Positions 3,281 to 52,847 of a DNA stretch of 64,000 nucleotides are shown one piece after another. The notes under the pieces were generated by a model. The model did no database searches, was not told the origin of the DNA, and saw only the letters and a list, made by a program, of their open reading frames with translations. The stretch spans positions 2,976,001 through 3,040,000 of the forward strand of contig CP001622.1 in the NCBI GenBank assembly GCA_000023185.1, written 5' to 3'. Both the position numbers and the translations under genes were made by a program. Positions within the stretch are counted from its first letter, which is position 1; each line of letters starts with the position of its first letter. The stretch comes from Rhizobium leguminosarum bv. trifolii WSM1325 (GTDB taxonomy: Bacteria > Pseudomonadota > Alphaproteobacteria > Rhizobiales > Rhizobiaceae).

Positions 3281-4255
3281 ATGCCTGCCCGCCACACCAA
3301 GGTGCTCATCATCGGTTCCGGACCTGCAGGCTATACTGCCGCGGTCTATGCCGCGCGCGCCATGCTGAAACCGGTTTTGATCGCCGGTCTCGAACAGGGC
3401 GGCCAGTTGATGATCACCACCGATGTCGAGAACTATCCGGGCTTTGCCGATCCGATCCAGGGTCCCTGGTTGATGGAACAGATGCTGCAGCAGGCAAAAC
3501 ATGTCGGCGCCGAGATCGTCAACGATCTCGTGACCGAAGTCGACATGAATCAGCGTCCTTTCGTCGCCCGCACCGACAGCGGCCAGGTCTGGACCACCGA
3601 TACGCTGATCATCGCCACCGGCGCCAAGGCCAAGTGGCTCGGCATCGAGAGCGAGCAGCATTTCCAGGGCTTCGGCGTTTCGGCCTGCGCCACTTGCGAC
3701 GGCTTCTTCTATCGCAACAAGGATGTGATCGTGGTTGGCGGCGGCAACAGCGCCGTCGAAGAGGCGCTCTATCTCTCCAACATCGCCAAGTCGGTCACAT
3801 TAGTGCACCGCCGCGACTTCTTCCGAGCCGAGAAGATCCTGCAGGAGCGCCTGTTCTCCAAGGACAATGTCAAGGTTCTGTGGAATACCGAAGTGGCCGA
3901 AATAACAGGAACGCCGGCCAAGCCGCCGATGCCGCAATCCGTATCCGGCGCGCGCCTGCGCGACGTCAGAACCGGCACGATCACCGACGTGGTGATCGAT
4001 GGCGTCTTCGTCGCCATCGGCCATGCGCCGGCAACCGAGCTCTTCAAAGACAAGCTGAAGCTGAAGGACAATGGTTATCTCTGGACCGCGCCGGATTCGA
4101 CTGCAACCAGCCTGGACGGTGTCTATGCCGCGGGCGACGTGACGGATGATACGTTCCGCCAGGCGATCACTGCCGCCGGCCTGGGGTGCATGGCAGCGCT
4201 TGAAGCCGAGCGATATCTGACGGGCCACATGCCCGTCGCCGTGGCCGCGGAGTAA
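3281..4255 (+). CDS. trxB: Thioredoxin-disulfide reductase
   Basis: NADPH-dependent FAD enzyme that reduces oxidised thioredoxin in the cytoplasm, 324 aa, full length. The FAD-binding motif is IGSGPAGYTAAVYAARA (residues 11-27). The redox-active disulfide is C136-A-T-C139. The NADPH-binding GGGNSAVEEA motif lies near 153-162 and the C-terminal FAD motif YAAGDV near 280. It is followed after a few bases by the redox-related LysR regulator gene, an arrangement conserved in Rhizobiaceae. Confidence 0.96.
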   Translation: MPARHTKVLIIGSGPAGYTAAVYAARAMLKPVLIAGLEQGGQLMITTDVENYPGFADPIQGPWLMEQMLQQAKHVGAEIVNDLVTEVDMNQRPFVARTDSGQVWTTDTLIIATGAKAKWLGIESEQHFQGFGVSACATCDGFFYRNKDVIVVGGGNSAVEEALYLSNIAKSVTLVHRRDFFRAEKILQERLFSKDNVKVLWNTEVAEITGTPAKPPMPQSVSGARLRDVRTGTITDVVIDGVFVAIGHAPATELFKDKLKLKDNGYLWTAPDSTATSLDGVYAAGDVTDDTFRQAITAAGLGCMAALEAERYLTGHMPVAVAAE

Positions 4256-4277
4256 GATCGGCATGAGGGGTGGGGGA

Positions 4278-5174
4278 ATGCCATTGGATTGGGACAAGCT
4301 GCGTATTTTTCACGCAGCTGCCGAGGCGGGTTCGTTCACGCATGCGGCGGATAAACTGCATCTGTCCCAATCCGCCATCAGCCGCCAGGTCAGCGCGCTG
4401 GAGCACGATGTCGGCACCAAGCTGTTTCACCGCCATGCGCGCGGCCTGATTCTGACGGAACAGGGCGAGTTGCTTTACCGCACCGCCCATGACGTGCTGC
4501 TGAAGCTCGAAACCGTGAAGATGCAGCTTACCGAAACGACGGAAACTCCGTCTGGCAAACTGCGCGTCACCACGACGGTCGGTCTCGGCCAGGGCTGGCT
4601 GACCGACAAGATCCAGGAATTCCTGCAGCTTTATCCCGATGTGCAGATCCAGCTGATCCTCGACAATGAGGAAGTGGATGTGAACATGCGTCATGCCGAC
4701 TGCGCGATCCGCCTGCGCCAGCCGCAACAGTCCGACCTCATCCAGCGCAAGCTCTTCACCGTGCACATGCATGTCTATGCGGCCCCGTCCTACATCAACC
4801 GCCACGGCGAGCCGCAGAAGGTCGAGGATCTCGACAATCACCGCATCATCACTTTCGGTGAGCCGGCGCCGAGTTACCTGCTCGATGTCAACTGGCTTGA
4901 GGTCGCCGGCCGCTCGTCCGACAACAAGCGTATTCCGCATCTGCAGATCAACAGCCAGACCTCGATCAAGCGCGCCGCCCTGCTCGGCATCGGCGTCGCC
5001 TGCCTGCCGGATTACATCGTCGGCCGCGACCCCGGCCTGATTCAGCTGGCGATCAATGCCGACGTACCCTCCTTCGACACCTATTTCTGCTATCCCGACG
5101 AGATCAAGAACGCCGCCAAGCTGAAAGCCTTCCGCGATTTCATCGTCAGCAAGGCCAGAAACTGGAACTTTTAA
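4278..5174 (+). CDS. lsrB: LysR-type regulator LsrB/VtlR
   Basis: LysR family regulator of about 298 aa with an N-terminal winged helix-turn-helix (residues 1-60; AGSFTHAADKLHLSQSAIS) and a periplasmic-binding-protein-like effector domain. Location directly after trxB and directly before two AbcR-type sRNAs, plus the DWDKLRIFHAAAEAGS start, matches LsrB (Sinorhizobium) and VtlR (Brucella, Agrobacterium). These are known for roles in oxidative stress, LPS, symbiosis or virulence and for control of AbcR sRNAs. Only three cysteines are visible (DCAIR, VACLP, YFCYP), consistent with a reported thiol-sensing role in the family. I chose the ATG at 4278, preceded by AGGGGTGGGGGA; an in-frame ATG at 4263 is the alternative. 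Confidence 0.88.
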   Translation: MPLDWDKLRIFHAAAEAGSFTHAADKLHLSQSAISRQVSALEHDVGTKLFHRHARGLILTEQGELLYRTAHDVLLKLETVKMQLTETTETPSGKLRVTTTVGLGQGWLTDKIQEFLQLYPDVQIQLILDNEEVDVNMRHADCAIRLRQPQQSDLIQRKLFTVHMHVYAAPSYINRHGEPQKVEDLDNHRIITFGEPAPSYLLDVNWLEVAGRSSDNKRIPHLQINSQTSIKRAALLGIGVACLPDYIVGRDPGLIQLAINADVPSFDTYFCYPDEIKNAAKLKAFRDFIVSKARNWNF

Positions 5175-5212: not shown

Positions 5213-5233
5213 CGCATGACTGGCATGCACAAA
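5213..5233 (+). promoter_or_regulatory. Candidate LysR operator upstream of first AbcR RNA
   Basis: Dyad GCAT-N7-ATGC followed by CACAAA. It matches the box at 5437-5457 in 17 of 21 positions, and both CATGCACAAA cores begin exactly 51 nt before the start of the respective sRNA. Being next to lsrB suggests LsrB binding; that is inference. Confidence 0.5.
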
Positions 5234-5274
5234 TGAGGGTTGCCGTTTGCCCATTAAACCACCATATCGCACAT

Positions 5275-5390
5275 AGCTGATGCACATGGTGGCTTTTCCT
5301 CCCAGTTCCACCGCATTAGCTGTTCCCCTCTGGAGGTTTTTGACCTTCACACTTATAAGGGCCCTGGTTTTCCAGTGGCCCTCTTTTTTT
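5275..5390 (+). ncRNA. abcR1: AbcR1-type trans-acting small RNA (alpha-r15 family), copy 1
   Basis: About 116 nt, nearly identical to the RNA at 5499-5613. It carries the pyrimidine-rich anti-Shine-Dalgarno segment TTTTCCTCCCAG, a second CCCCTCTGGAGG segment, and a Rho-independent terminator with stem GGGCC/GGCCC ending in seven T (5384-5390). Tandem copies downstream of lsrB match the AbcR1/AbcR2 (alpha-r15) Hfq-binding RNAs, which repress many ABC-transporter substrate-binding-protein mRNAs. The 5' end is set by where similarity with copy 2 begins (AGCTGATGC). Which copy corresponds to AbcR1 or AbcR2 of other species is not settled here. Confidence 0.88.
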
Positions 5391-5436
5391 GCCCTTGCTC
5401 CCTCGATAAATGCCGCACCGCAAAAAAATTGTGCGA

Positions 5437-5457
5437 CGCATAGCAGACATGCACAAA
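5437..5457 (+). promoter_or_regulatory. Candidate LysR operator upstream of second AbcR RNA
   Basis: Second copy of the dyad-containing box (GCAT-N7-ATGC followed by CACAAA), lying between the terminator of the first RNA and the start of the second. Its distance to the RNA start matches the first box exactly (51 nt from the CATGCACAAA core). The intervening promoter sequences are otherwise diverged, so conservation of box and spacing suggests function. Confidence 0.5.
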
Positions 5458-5498
5458 AAAGCATTGAAACCTGCTCAAGGAAGCACCATATCTCTCTC

Positions 5499-5613
5499 AG
5501 CTGATGCATCTTGTGGTTTCTCTCCCAGTACCACCGCATTAGCTGTTCCCCTCTGGAGGTTTTTGACCTTCACAATTACAAGGGCCCTGGTTTTCCGGTG
5601 GCCCTCTTTTTTT
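5499..5613 (+). ncRNA. abcR2: AbcR2-type trans-acting small RNA (alpha-r15 family), copy 2
   Basis: About 115 nt paralogue of the RNA at 5275-5390. It shares an almost unbroken block from CCACCGCATTAGCTG through the terminator; differences are concentrated near the 5' stem. It has an exposed TCTCCCAG anti-Shine-Dalgarno segment, then CCCCTCTGGAGG, then a GC stem with a T-run at 5607-5613. The terminator of copy 1 separates the two, so each is probably transcribed from its own promoter. Confidence 0.88.
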
Positions 5614-5682
5614 GCCTAAAATTTGCGCACTCACTAAACACCGCAGCCTCACGCCTCCGTGATTTGCATATCGAAGGCTGAC

Positions 5683-5698
5683 GATCGATATATCGGTC
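5683..5698. promoter_or_regulatory. Candidate ArsR autoregulatory dyad
   Basis: Sixteen-base near-perfect palindrome (seven of eight pairs, centre CGATATATCG) 30 nt before the ArsR start codon. Short AT-centred dyads of this kind are typical operators for ArsR-family repressors; assignment is by position only. Confidence 0.4.
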
Positions 5699-5727
5699 AG
5701 ACACGATTTATAATTCGGCAAACGACG

Positions 5728-6021
5728 ATGGACAAAGACGAAATTATTAAGGCGCTCGCCCATCCCGCCCGGATGGACATTCTCAACTGGCTGAAAAATC
5801 CCGAGGAGCATTTCCCCTCGCAGGAGCATCCTTTCGAAATGGGCGTCTGCGCCAGCCAGTTCGAGCGCTGCGGCCTGTCGCAGTCGACTGTCTCGGCCCA
5901 TCTCGGCACGCTGCATCGCGCCGGCCTCGTCACCACCAAACGCGTCGGCCAGTGGATCTTTTACAAGCGCAACGAGGAAACCATCGCCGTCTTCCTCAAG
6001 CAACTGACGCAGGATCTTTAG
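5728..6021 (+). CDS. ArsR family helix-turn-helix regulator
   Basis: Small (97 aa) winged-helix repressor. It opens with the ArsR hallmark ALAHPARMDILNWL and has the recognition helix SQSTVSAHLGTLHRAGLV followed by the wing TKRVGQWIFYKRNEE. The open frame begins at 5659, but the ATG at 5728 gives the family length. Cysteines occur at GVCASQFERCG, but no clear metal-binding ELCVCDL-type site is present, so a metal-independent ligand is likely. The MFS gene starts one base after its stop, so it probably controls the following exporter and reductase. Confidence 0.85.
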   Translation: MDKDEIIKALAHPARMDILNWLKNPEEHFPSQEHPFEMGVCASQFERCGLSQSTVSAHLGTLHRAGLVTTKRVGQWIFYKRNEETIAVFLKQLTQDL

Positions 6022-6022
6022 A

Positions 6023-7189
6023 ATGCCCCTCGCCCTCCTCGTTCTTGCCTTGAGCTCATTTGCGATAGGCACCACTGAATTCGTCATCATGGGTCTGTTG
6101 CCGGAGGTCGCCGCCGATCTCTCGGTCAGCATCCCGCAGGCCGGATGGCTGGTGACCGGTTATGCCCTGGCGGTCGCGATCGGCGCCCCTGTGATGGCGA
6201 TTTCGACCGCGAAGTTGAAGCGCCGTACCGCCCTGATTGCGCTGATGGCCTTCTTCATCGCCGGCAACCTGCTGTGCGCTCTGGCGAGCGACTACTGGGT
6301 GCTGATGATCGCCCGTGTCGTGACAGCACTCTGCCACGGCGCCTTCTTCGGCATCGGCTCGGTGGTCGCCGCCGGCCTCGTCGCCGAAGACCGCAAGGCC
6401 CGAGCCGTCGCGCTGATGTTCACTGGCCTGACGCTCGCCAACGTTCTCGGCGTGCCGCTCGGCACCGCGATCGGTCAGGCCTATGGCTGGCGCGCCACCT
6501 TCGGCGTCGTCACCGTCATCGGTATCTTCACCATATCAGGCCTGATCGCCATCCTGCCCAGGGACAAGCAGCAAGAAAACGGCAGCATCCTGCGCGAGAT
6601 TGCGGCACTCAGGAATGGCGGTCTGTGGCTAGCACTCTCCACCACCGTCTTCTTCGCCGCCTCTATGTTCACCCTCTTCACCTATATCGCGCCGCTGCTG
6701 CGCGACGTCACCGGCGTTTCGCCGGAAGGCGTCACCTGGACGCTGTTCCTGATCGGCCTCGGGCTGACCATCGGCAACCTCGTCGGCGGCAAGCTTGCCG
6801 ATTGGCGGCTCGGCGCGACGCTAGCCGGGGTCTTTGCCGCGATCGCCATCACTTCGATCGCCTTCAGCTATACGAGCCGCTTCTTCATCCCGGCTGAAAT
6901 CACCCTCTTCCTCTGGGCGATGGCAAGCTTTGCCGCCGTACCGGCGCTGCAAGTCGGCGTCGTCGGCTTCGGCAAGGACGCCCCGAACCTCGTCTCGACG
7001 ATCAACATCGGCGCCTTCAACACCGGCAATGCGCTCGGCGCATGGGTGGGTGGCTTGGTCATCGACGCCGGCTTCGATCTGACCCGCGTTCCGCTCGCCG
7101 CGGCCTTGATGGCCCTGATCGGCCTCGGGGCGACGGCGCTCACCTATCTCTCCGCCAGGGGCCGGGCTGCCCTCGCCCCTGCCGAGTGA
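6023..7189 (+). CDS. MFS transporter, AraJ/drug-efflux type
   Basis: Inner-membrane permease of 388 aa with about twelve predicted hydrophobic segments. The N-terminus LALSSFAIGTTEFVIMGLLP is the signature of the DHA1/AraJ-YdhP branch of the major facilitator superfamily, which mostly export sugars or small toxic compounds. Motif A-like charged loop AKLKRRTAL sits between segments 2 and 3. It is directly downstream of the ArsR gene and 25 bp upstream of an Old Yellow Enzyme gene. This suggests a regulator-exporter-detoxification cassette; the substrate cannot be read from sequence. Confidence 0.85.
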   Translation: MPLALLVLALSSFAIGTTEFVIMGLLPEVAADLSVSIPQAGWLVTGYALAVAIGAPVMAISTAKLKRRTALIALMAFFIAGNLLCALASDYWVLMIARVVTALCHGAFFGIGSVVAAGLVAEDRKARAVALMFTGLTLANVLGVPLGTAIGQAYGWRATFGVVTVIGIFTISGLIAILPRDKQQENGSILREIAALRNGGLWLALSTTVFFAASMFTLFTYIAPLLRDVTGVSPEGVTWTLFLIGLGLTIGNLVGGKLADWRLGATLAGVFAAIAITSIAFSYTSRFFIPAEITLFLWAMASFAAVPALQVGVVGFGKDAPNLVSTINIGAFNTGNALGAWVGGLVIDAGFDLTRVPLAAALMALIGLGATALTYLSARGRAALAPAE

Positions 7190-50495: not shown

Positions 50496-52847
50496 ATGAA
50501 CAATTCCGTTGAGAACAGATTTTTTGCGATAGTTTGCGGAGCGCTGCTCGTCTTTGTCGCTCCCCTCTTTGTTCTCTTCCTATTTCTTTCCTCGGAACGG
50601 GCCGACAAGGAAATACGCGACCATATCTCCGTTCTTCTTGTCGCCAATGCCCAGGCGCTGGCCAAACCGCTGTGGGATCTCGATGAGGAGAGCGTCACTC
50701 AGATCAGCGCGACGGTCGTTTCCCAGGGCGCCATCGTCAAGGTCGAAGTGCGTGACCAGTCAGGCCAGCTCGACGTCAGCCAGTCCACCATTCCGCGCTC
50801 CTTCGACGGCAAGCTGGTGCAGGTGTCGCGCGCCATCATCTACAACACCGTCGACGGTCCGAAGAACCTCGGCAGCATCAGCGTCTATTATCCTGCGCTC
50901 GGCCTGTTTTCCGGCCTGAAGCAGGAAGAGGTTGTCTTCATCTCGATCTTCATCTTCGCGGTGCTGACCGTTTTCGGCACGGCGCTGATCGGCAACCGCT
51001 TCTTCGTCATCCAGCCGTTGATGCGGCTGACGGCGGCGATCGAGGCCACCCGCCAGCTGGGCTCCCGCCACCATGTCGACTGGCAGTCGAACGACGAGAT
51101 GGGGCGGCTTGCCCATAGCTTCAACGAGATGCAGACCAAGCTCGAAAGCGAGGAAAAGGAGCTGAAGCTTGCCCACCGCCGCGCCACCGACATCTACAAT
51201 CTGACGCCCGCCATGCTCTTCTCGCTCGACGAGGAAGACCGCATCACCGCCGTCAGCGATTATTGGCTGCTTGCCACGGGTTACAACCGCGCCGCCATCA
51301 TCGGCCGCAACTTCGCCGATCTCGTCACTCCCCCGACCCGCGACAAATTCGTCAAGCGCCGCCAGGGCGAAAGCGGCATGACCGTCACCGTCAAGTTCAT
51401 CTGCCTGGATGGCCGCACCATGGACGTCCTTATTATGGAATCGGAGGCGGGCGCTGGCGCTCAAGACCGCCTCTCGCTATCGGTCATGGCCGATGTGACC
51501 GAACTCAAGGCCTCCGAGGACCGCAACCACCGCCAGGCAATCACCGATCACCTGACCGGTCTTCTCAATCGCCAGGGCTTCGAAGCCGTACTCGACAACA
51601 AGATCGCCGCCGCCGACGCTGCCGGCCACGAACTCGCCTGCCTCTTCGTCGATCTCGACCGCTTCAAGTGGATCAACGACAATATGGGCCACGCCGCCGG
51701 CGACATGGCGCTGATCGAGCTCGTCGAGCGCCTGAAGACCCATCTTGCCCCCTCCGACGAGGCCGCCCGTCTCGGCGGCGACGAATTTGCCATCCTGCTG
51801 CCGGCGAAGGACGCCGAAAAACGCGCCAAGGTGATGTGCGAGCAGATTGCCTCGATCTTCGAAACGCCGTTCGCCCCCGACATGCATCTGAGCGCTTCCG
51901 TCGGCATCGCCATCTATCCGCATCATGCCGCAACCGCGGCCGAACTGCTCCAGAAATCCGACATGGCGATGTATGCCAAGAAACGCGACGGCAAGAACGG
52001 CGCGCAGCTCTTCGACAATGCCATGCTCGACCGTGCCCGCAGCCGCGCCGAAATCGAGGCCAATATCGAAGCCGGCCTCGTCGACAACTGGTTCGAAGCC
52101 TTTCTGCAGCCGATCGTTACCCTGAACGGCCGAGGCATTGCCGGTTTCGAGGCGCTGATGCGCCTCAACCATCCGCAGAAGGGCTTGATGCCGCCGGCCG
52201 AGATCATCAGCGTCGCCGAGGAAACGGCAAAGATCGTCCGCGTCGGCAACGTCATCATGGAAAAGGCGATCGCCAACCTCGCGGAGATTTCCCGCATATC
52301 AGGCATGCAGGATACCTATCTCGCCATCAACTTCTCGCCGTTGCAGTTCGAGCCGGCGCTGCCGGCCCGTCTTGCCGCCATCGTCGGTCGCCACGGCATC
52401 CGCCCCGAGCGCATCGTCGTCGAGATCACCGAAGCCGTGCTGATGCACGACAACCCGCAGATCCGCATGATCGTCACGGAGCTTCGTCGCTTCGGTTGCC
52501 GCATCGCGCTTGACGATTTCGGCACCGGCTATTCGTCGCTGAGCTACCTCAACCGCTTCCCCGTCGACATCATCAAGATCGACCAGTCCTTCACCCGCGC
52601 GATCAACGACGGCGACGACGACGTGCGCCAGAAGAGCCGCATGCTGATCGAAGGCATCACCACGCTTTCCCACAAGATGAACTGCACCGTCATTGCCGAG
52701 GGCATCGAGACCGAAGAGGAATGCCGCACGCTCCACCAGATGGGGCTTGACTATGGTCAGGGCTATCTCTTCCATCGTCCACAGCACGCAGCCACGCTGA
52801 TCGAGCAACTGATGGCCTTGCAGTCGGCCGTCGCACGCGCCTCGTAA
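50496..52847 (+). CDS. HAMP-PAS-GGDEF-EAL c-di-GMP signalling protein
   Basis: 783 aa. TM1 is at about residues 10-32, then a periplasmic sensor of about 110 residues, TM2 (about 145-165), HAMP (about 165-220) and PAS (about 230-340; TDIYNLTPAMLFSLDEEDRI). The GGDEF domain (about 350-510) has intact ARLGGDEFAIL and a DLDRFKWINDNMGH metal/substrate segment. The EAL domain (about 530-775) has intact FEALMRLNHP, NFSPLQ, DDFGTGYSSL and EGIE. Both activities look possible. It is followed 25 bp later by a periplasmic solute-binding protein gene, perhaps a partner. Confidence 0.92.
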   Translation: MNNSVENRFFAIVCGALLVFVAPLFVLFLFLSSERADKEIRDHISVLLVANAQALAKPLWDLDEESVTQISATVVSQGAIVKVEVRDQSGQLDVSQSTIPRSFDGKLVQVSRAIIYNTVDGPKNLGSISVYYPALGLFSGLKQEEVVFISIFIFAVLTVFGTALIGNRFFVIQPLMRLTAAIEATRQLGSRHHVDWQSNDEMGRLAHSFNEMQTKLESEEKELKLAHRRATDIYNLTPAMLFSLDEEDRITAVSDYWLLATGYNRAAIIGRNFADLVTPPTRDKFVKRRQGESGMTVTVKFICLDGRTMDVLIMESEAGAGAQDRLSLSVMADVTELKASEDRNHRQAITDHLTGLLNRQGFEAVLDNKIAAADAAGHELACLFVDLDRFKWINDNMGHAAGDMALIELVERLKTHLAPSDEAARLGGDEFAILLPAKDAEKRAKVMCEQIASIFETPFAPDMHLSASVGIAIYPHHAATAAELLQKSDMAMYAKKRDGKNGAQLFDNAMLDRARSRAEIEANIEAGLVDNWFEAFLQPIVTLNGRGIAGFEALMRLNHPQKGLMPPAEIISVAEETAKIVRVGNVIMEKAIANLAEISRISGMQDTYLAINFSPLQFEPALPARLAAIVGRHGIRPERIVVEITEAVLMHDNPQIRMIVTELRRFGCRIALDDFGTGYSSLSYLNRFPVDIIKIDQSFTRAINDGDDDVRQKSRMLIEGITTLSHKMNCTVIAEGIETEEECRTLHQMGLDYGQGYLFHRPQHAATLIEQLMALQSAVARAS

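Follow-up and report, generated by a model that had tools for sequence, protein, structure and literature searches.

The closest described systems are those of the LysR-type regulators LsrB in S. meliloti and VtlR in A. tumefaciens. In S. meliloti, the abcR1 promoter carries the LsrB consensus GCAT-N3-TG-N3-T at -61 to -49, and removal of the predicted motif lowers promoter activity more than 22-fold; AbcR1 is undetectable in an lsrB mutant, and LsrB gel-shifts the promoter (PMC8844928). The tandem abcR genes of this species have lsrB and SMc01226 as neighbours. The second promoter, PabcR2, is LsrB-independent and driven by RpoH1, so that a redox regulator has charge of one AbcR RNA and a heat-shock sigma factor of the other (PMC8844928). 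A comparison of PabcR2 from several alphaproteobacteria, possibly including Rhizobium (Fig. S1), gave no further motif according to the available portion of that paper. S. meliloti nfeR1 requires LsrB and the site TGCA-N6-GCAT, to which NtrC also binds; a point mutation of the box blocked LsrB binding, and class I activation was proposed (PMC10746234). In A. tumefaciens, the gene order is trxB, vtlR, abcR1, abcR2 (Fig. 7 legend), and VtlR binds the abcR1, atu1667, and vrsA promoters, while DNA of PabcR2 failed as a competitor for VtlR (PMC7486931). A search of the literature, mostly without subscription papers, found no LsrB control of a second AbcR RNA in Rhizobium.

The window, that is, the whole stretch of 64,000 nucleotides that was analysed, is part of the 4.77-Mb Rhizobium chromosome contig C1. 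It contains, in this order, trxB (3281-4255), lsrB, two ar15 RNAs, and an ORF of the ArsR family. The LysR-type gene (4263..5174, + strand) begins 7 nt past trxB and encodes a protein of 303 aa, the proposed activator, with the Pfam domains HTH_1 and LysR_substrate; no NCBIfam model was above cut-off among the best 25 of 55 models. The name lsrB/vtlR is used because the gene order trxB-vtlR-abcR1-abcR2 is the same as in A. tumefaciens. AbcR1 with its terminator lies at 5275..5387 (+; Rfam RF02345, 127 bits), and the second AbcR RNA, in the abcR2 position, lies at 5499..5610 (+; RF02345, 119 bits). Both exceed the RF02345 gathering score of 40 and match model positions 1-112 of 112, terminator covered. 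Their 3' parts are identical at 66/69 positions, in line with the near-identical 3' halves that an earlier note on this DNA had described. The RNA starts are the starts of the RF02345 model, and they are supported by PMC8844928, where the box, counted from the transcription starts of S. meliloti, is placed at -61 to -49 and thereby on the same bases. At the end of the island, in the SMc01226 position, the ArsR-family regulator ORF (5659..6021, +) scores above cut-off with NCBIfam NF033788, and its first in-frame ATG lies further inside. It is followed by an MFS transporter gene (6023-7189) with 319 bits for the Cmx/CmrA family, below the cut-off of 400. A sensor kinase and a response regulator of the NtrC type, a pair that we take to be DctB/DctD-like, occupy 27-2550 of the window.

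Each of the two RNAs is preceded by a palindrome. Putative LsrB box 1, GCATGACTGGCATGC (5214..5228, no strand assigned), spans -61 to -47 of RNA 1 and fits the published GCAT-N3-TG-N3-T, and putative LsrB box 2, GCATAGCAGACATGC (5438..5452, likewise), spans -61 to -47 of RNA 2 and has A, not T, on its axis. Both continue into an ACAAA extension (5229..5233 and 5453..5457, +). GCAT begins at 5214 and 5438, which is -61 from the RNA start in both cases, and the core CATGCACAAA begins at 5224 and 5448, so that its equal distance, given as 51 nt in the earlier note, is borne out. From the start of GCAT, TTG follows at +26 nt and CCATAT at +48 nt in both promoters. By this spacing geometry, promoter 1 has the -35 hexamer TTGCCG (5240..5245, +) and the -10 hexamer CATATC (5263..5268, +), and TTG occurs at the same -35 place in 79/80 copy-1 promoters of the named loci (best 80 of 457 relatives; the 79 with a hexamer recorded). 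Promoter 2 has TTGAAA (5464..5469, +) and CATATC (5487..5492, +), its -35 hexamer having been read against the RpoH1 consensus in the consulted part of PMC8844928. The 21-mers 5213-5233 and 5437-5457 are identical at 17/21 positions, whereas the copies agree at only 18/58 positions upstream of them (-120 to -63); the claim of a box kept amid diverged upstream sequence is correct.

Within the window, GCAT-N7-ATGCACAAA with at most one mismatch gives 2 matches against 0.10 expected. Since 2 of 100 window shuffles also gave 2 matches, one may suppose that two short stretches are alike by chance. This has next to no probability, as the distance is the same in both copies, the tandem AbcR RNAs are the only places in the 7.4-Mb genome where the 19-mer GCATNNCWGNNATGCACAA occurs without a mismatch, once at each, and the box is kept across the genus, by which chance is refuted. 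With at most one mismatch the 19-mer has 4 matches genome-wide, and the extra sites are located at C3:36115, before a third AbcR RNA, and at C1:4296787, before an ar14 RNA.

The classic LysR operator form is T-N11-A inside a dyad. In box 1, T-N11-A is readable from T5217 to A5229, yet these two bases are not symmetric partners in the GCAT/ATGC dyad. Palindromes with GCAT arms do not look like the classic form, and the VtlR box is itself called divergent in PMC7486931. The box might on these grounds belong to another regulator shared by both promoters, which is very improbable: LsrB/VtlR binding to promoters with the consensus has been shown in A. tumefaciens and S. meliloti (available portions of PMC7486931, PMC8844928, and PMC10746234), and it was the nfeR1 box mutation that prevented LsrB binding (PMC10746234).

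Conservation was examined in the named loci, that is, in those 80 of 457 relatives that matched best; their titles name 65 Rhizobium, 13 'Rhizobiales bacterium', 1 Metarhizobium, and 1 Hyphomicrobiales. Among these best 80 of 457, the full 11/11 palindrome is present in 79/80 copy-1 and 74/79 copy-2 promoters, and the remaining copies score 9 or 10 of 11. The box stands at -61 in 77/80 and 76/79 copies of the same best 80 of 457, and conservation of box and spacing is what the earlier note had named as support for its reading. A palindrome score of at least 10 was reached by 2 of 19,100 shuffled upstreams and by 0 of 382 real upstreams around -110. After removal of near-copies, the conservation profile rests on 42/80 copy-1 and 41/79 copy-2 rows (best 80 of 457 loci), and the 19-nt box window holds 1.42 (copy 1) and 1.35 (copy 2) bits per position versus 0.31 and 0.40 at -120 to -76. 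The earlier note had proposed to test whether the box is the most conserved upstream element. Among the blocks that lie upstream of -35 it is conserved best, but overall it is not, as the box window ranks 12/102 in copy 1 and 4/102 in copy 2, with core-promoter windows ahead. When copy 1 and copy 2 of the same locus are compared, agreement is 87-95% at ten of the box's eleven fixed positions and 28% at the axis, versus 25-27% over the flanking bases -120 to -63; a TGC at -27 to -25 is common to both copies in 96-99%.

The exact 19-mer is found in 132/148 genus genomes and is absent from 16/148, with two occurrences in 87, one in 34, and three or four in 11 genomes (hand-tallied; genomic places are known for part of the matches only). 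The backwards control 19-mer has 0 occurrences in all 148. Among Rhizobium AbcR copies on other contigs, 14/17 score 9 or 10, one scores 8, and two score 5, and ACAA follows the box in 17/17. One of them is the third ar15 RNA of this genome (C3:36115-36286; positions 1440-1611 of locus L003; the other copies are L200-L215), which has GCATAGCTGCGTTGCACAAAA at -61. Contig C3 (660,973 bases) is probably a plasmid.

The dyad centre is position 8 of 15. Among offset-0 boxes of the named loci (best 80 of 457), the axis base is T in 71/77 and A in 6/77 for copy 1, and A in 53/76, T in 21/76, and C in 2/76 for copy 2. In this genome, copy 1 fits the published consensus exactly, and copy 2 departs from it by a single letter, the axis base, which is A and not T. 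The published GCAT-N3-TG-N3-T is matched by 71/80 copy-1 boxes and by 21/79 copy-2 boxes, the low figure for copy 2 being due to the axis base, and the symmetric form GCATNNCWGNNATGC is matched by 79/80 and 74/79 (best 80 of 457 in all cases). Axis T and A are one base pair seen from either strand; therefore W, flanked by C and G, is a better notation than the published T. The published consensus was too strict as a search term for copy 2, and the symmetric form was used instead. As GCATNNCWGNNATGC was derived from the same alignments in which it was counted, the ar15 counts are descriptive, and the ar14 and small-ORF sites described below are a more independent check.

Eight ar14 matches are present in the genome. 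Five of the six examined have a palindrome of 10-11/11, two of them at -56 and three at -93 as counted from the start of the model: C1:107063, C1:4296749 (-), C5:119313, C6:2409 (-), and C3:28645 (within L295-L300). The sixth, C1:1697156 (-), has no palindrome. In the genus, the best ar14 match was taken from each of 30 of 40 genomes, with the start assumed at locus base 1501; 10/11 is found at -56 in 11 of these 30 loci, at -59 in one, and at -93 in one. The other 17/30 score 6 to 8 and by their first letters are seemingly other ar14 kinds. NfeR1 of S. meliloti is presumably an ar14-family RNA, and its LsrB site differs from the present ones in that it belongs to a different RNA family from ar15/AbcR.

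The palindrome alone occurs at 16 places in the genome, and 12 of these are away from any ar15 or ar14 RNA. The AbcR boxes account for two, and another two precede ar14 RNAs; one lies before a 48-aa ORF, and one is inside an ar35 RNA; three (C1:724428, C1:2072101, and C1:2715384) sit between longer ORFs. Seven, including window 52294-52308, are inside ORFs of more than 400 codons and were taken as chance. The ar35 case (C3:466330; L238 1501-1515) is a palindrome within, not upstream of, the small RNA (RF02346). At C1:2929865 (L231 1501-1515), the palindrome has the same -35/-10 spacing and precedes the 48-aa ORF, which is conserved. This stretch has a match in 24/60 genus genomes, each with 10-11/11 (L269-L292), and 36 are without match; in the four most distant matches the alignment starts at the box (query position 61). 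The Pfam scan gave no family for the 48-aa ORF, which is possibly the counterpart of the VtlR target atu1667.

Beyond the genus, 60 family loci from 26 other genera were hand-picked among the matches listed, one per genome, with tandem or likely chromosomal loci preferred; 60/247 genomes had no match in the family search, and weak matches were left out. Four weaker loci (L216-L219) stand outside the counts, of which L216, L218, and L219 have lsrB and no resolved RNA start, and L217 has neither an nhmmer nor a tblastn match. The named loci L121, L123, and L135 are apparently the same as L165, L158, and L150 (identical RNAs), and the two sets overlap by these three. In 60/60 chosen loci lsrB precedes the first copy in the same orientation at a distance of 82 to 672 nt, and the lsrB-adjacent copy has a box of at least 9/11 (38 full, 20 at 10, and 2 at 9). 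The chosen loci contain 45 later copies, 39 of them with a resolved start; 12 are boxed (4 genera) and 27 are boxless (scores 4-7). A TTGAA-N15..18-CCATAT core is found in 19/27 boxless later copies, 0/12 boxed later copies, and 6/60 first copies. Later AbcR copies thus fall into a boxed and a boxless kind; those of Rhizobium belong to the former, with some cores leaning to RpoH1. One locus (L174) has four tandem ar15 copies past lsrB, of which copies 1, 3, and 4 are boxed and copy 2 is boxless. In a tree of the RNAs (167 rows, 117 columns; short RNAs), copies within a genus tend to group, weakly; the second copy of Rhizobium may be either an orthologue of the RpoH-type abcR2 or a duplicate that arose later from abcR1.

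Promoter 2 of this genome reads ATTGAA-N16-ACCATAT, which is spaced like CTTGAA-N16-CCTATAT, the RpoH1 consensus of S. meliloti, and matches 10/13 of its letters. LsrB might accordingly operate at copy 1 only; box 2 would then be a relic left by the tandem duplication, and abcR2 would depend on RpoH1, as it does in S. meliloti. The abcR2 promoters of the relatives speak for such a relic, being LsrB-independent in S. meliloti (PMC8844928) and not competing for VtlR in A. tumefaciens (PMC7486931), and so does the -35 TTGAA, found in 56/79 named copy-2 versus 14/80 copy-1 promoters (best 80 of 457). However, a relic is expected to decay, and the copy-2 palindrome is full in its 74/79 promoters (best 80 of 457) despite the turnover of the flank, which by eye is complete in the R. 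tropici group. In other genera, moreover, the RpoH-like core is confined among later copies to boxless ones (19 of the 27 boxless among 39, and 0 of the 12 boxed), and the -10 form [CT]CCATAT of the boxless copies (20/27) is found in just 1/79 named copy-2 promoters (best 80 of 457). A relic is therefore improbable. An S. meliloti-type abcR2 promoter would have an RpoH1 core and no LsrB box, whereas copy 2 here has the full palindrome.

A different arrangement, compatible with LsrB activation of both promoters, is that the copy-2 promoter of R. leguminosarum/etli is a hybrid of an LsrB box and a core readable by RpoH1, responding to redox as well as to heat or stationary stress. Box, TTGAA, and RpoH1 spacing do occur together, and TTGAA-N15..18-CCATAT is present in 37/79 named copy-2 promoters (best 80 of 457). 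On the other hand, the RpoH1 consensus is matched at 10/13 letters only, ATTGCG stands in 15/79 copy-2 promoters, and the identical TTGAA core is present in 14/80 copy-1 promoters (best 80 of 457 for both), so that the hybrid is best regarded as a tentative proposal.

The reading that we prefer, with a probability of roughly 88%, is that the box is the LsrB/VtlR operator through which both tandem AbcR promoters are activated in Rhizobium, where binding by LsrB is predicted from the DNA. The candidate operator of the earlier note is supported by consensus and position, by the 79/80 and 74/79 full copies (best 80 of 457), by the linkage to lsrB in 60/60 loci, and by 5/6 ar14 RNAs. The regulator is itself conserved: residues 7-66, the DNA-binding domain, are 94.5% identical versus 84.1% in the effector domain (63 loci), which fits a conserved operator, and the whole protein is 100% identical in 7/80 named loci, including R. 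leguminosarum, R. sophorae, and R. ruizarguesonis (best 80 of 457). Several observations were counted against the operator reading, namely the core-promoter windows that equal or exceed the box in conservation, the misfit of copy 2 to the published consensus, the abcR2 promoters of relatives that are LsrB-independent or do not compete for VtlR, and the 16/148 genomes without the 19-mer. The 2/17 other-contig copies at 5/11 and the one at 8/11, as well as the 12/16 palindromes off ar15/ar14, were counted likewise. The same applies to LsrB residues 36-52, taken as the recognition-helix region, which at 85.8% identity overall are hardly above the effector domain; 36-44 are nearly invariant and the rest is variable (63 loci).

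LysR proteins usually place a second dimer on promoter-proximal half-sites. From the box position and from LysR proteins in general, an LsrB dimer would occupy the 15-bp palindrome at -61 to -47, and a second dimer would occupy ACAAA together with the conserved TGC at -27 to -25. Bound LsrB would then contact RNA polymerase and activate the adjoining promoter. With both tandem promoters so activated, LsrB would drive two AbcR RNAs beside its own gene, and probably also the AbcR copy on the other contig and several ar14 RNAs. We infer the binding at copy 2, the tetramer, and the regulon alike. It is conceivable, although doubtful, that LsrB in Rhizobium acts mainly as a master switch for small RNAs, with one operator at the tandem AbcRs, the AbcR of the other replicon, and several ar14 RNAs, and that the second promoter of R. 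leguminosarum/etli joins this operator to an RpoH1-type core, with one RNA for two signals.

Compared with the known systems, the operator of copy 1 is already described, and the new part is the box at the second AbcR promoter in Rhizobium. The statement of the earlier note that LsrB/VtlR is known in relatives to control AbcR RNAs is accordingly valid for copy 1 and not for copy 2; in the available texts, the second RNA is not under LsrB/VtlR in S. meliloti or A. tumefaciens, and box 2 therefore falls outside what is known in relatives. If both RNAs are under LsrB, the S. meliloti results are not transferable to Rhizobium symbionts, and the duplicate RNA must serve another purpose, such as dose or different targets; if the promoter is fused, one RNA combines two signals that in S. 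meliloti act on different RNAs. TGCATGGCTGGCAT satisfies both published descriptions, that of abcR1 and that of nfeR1, and the two motifs may therefore be parts of one palindrome. A symmetric consensus may in this way bring both motifs under one description, and LsrB targets would be predicted more sharply with it. The Brucella VtlR motif CAATGCAGCCATGCA (quoted in PMC12595884), taken as its reverse complement, agrees with the palindrome in the left arm and at the centre, but its right arm has TTG where the palindrome has ATG. The A. tumefaciens VtlR system is similar in its consensus and in the order trxB-vtlR-abcR1-abcR2. It differs in the non-competing abcR2 promoter DNA and in the VtlR box centre, given as TG only in the accessible portion of the source. 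S. meliloti PabcR1 shares the box consensus, the position at -61 to -49, and the tandem AbcR RNAs adjoining lsrB. In S. meliloti, however, the box is described at abcR1 and abcR2 is RpoH1-dependent, whereas in Rhizobium the box is present at both.
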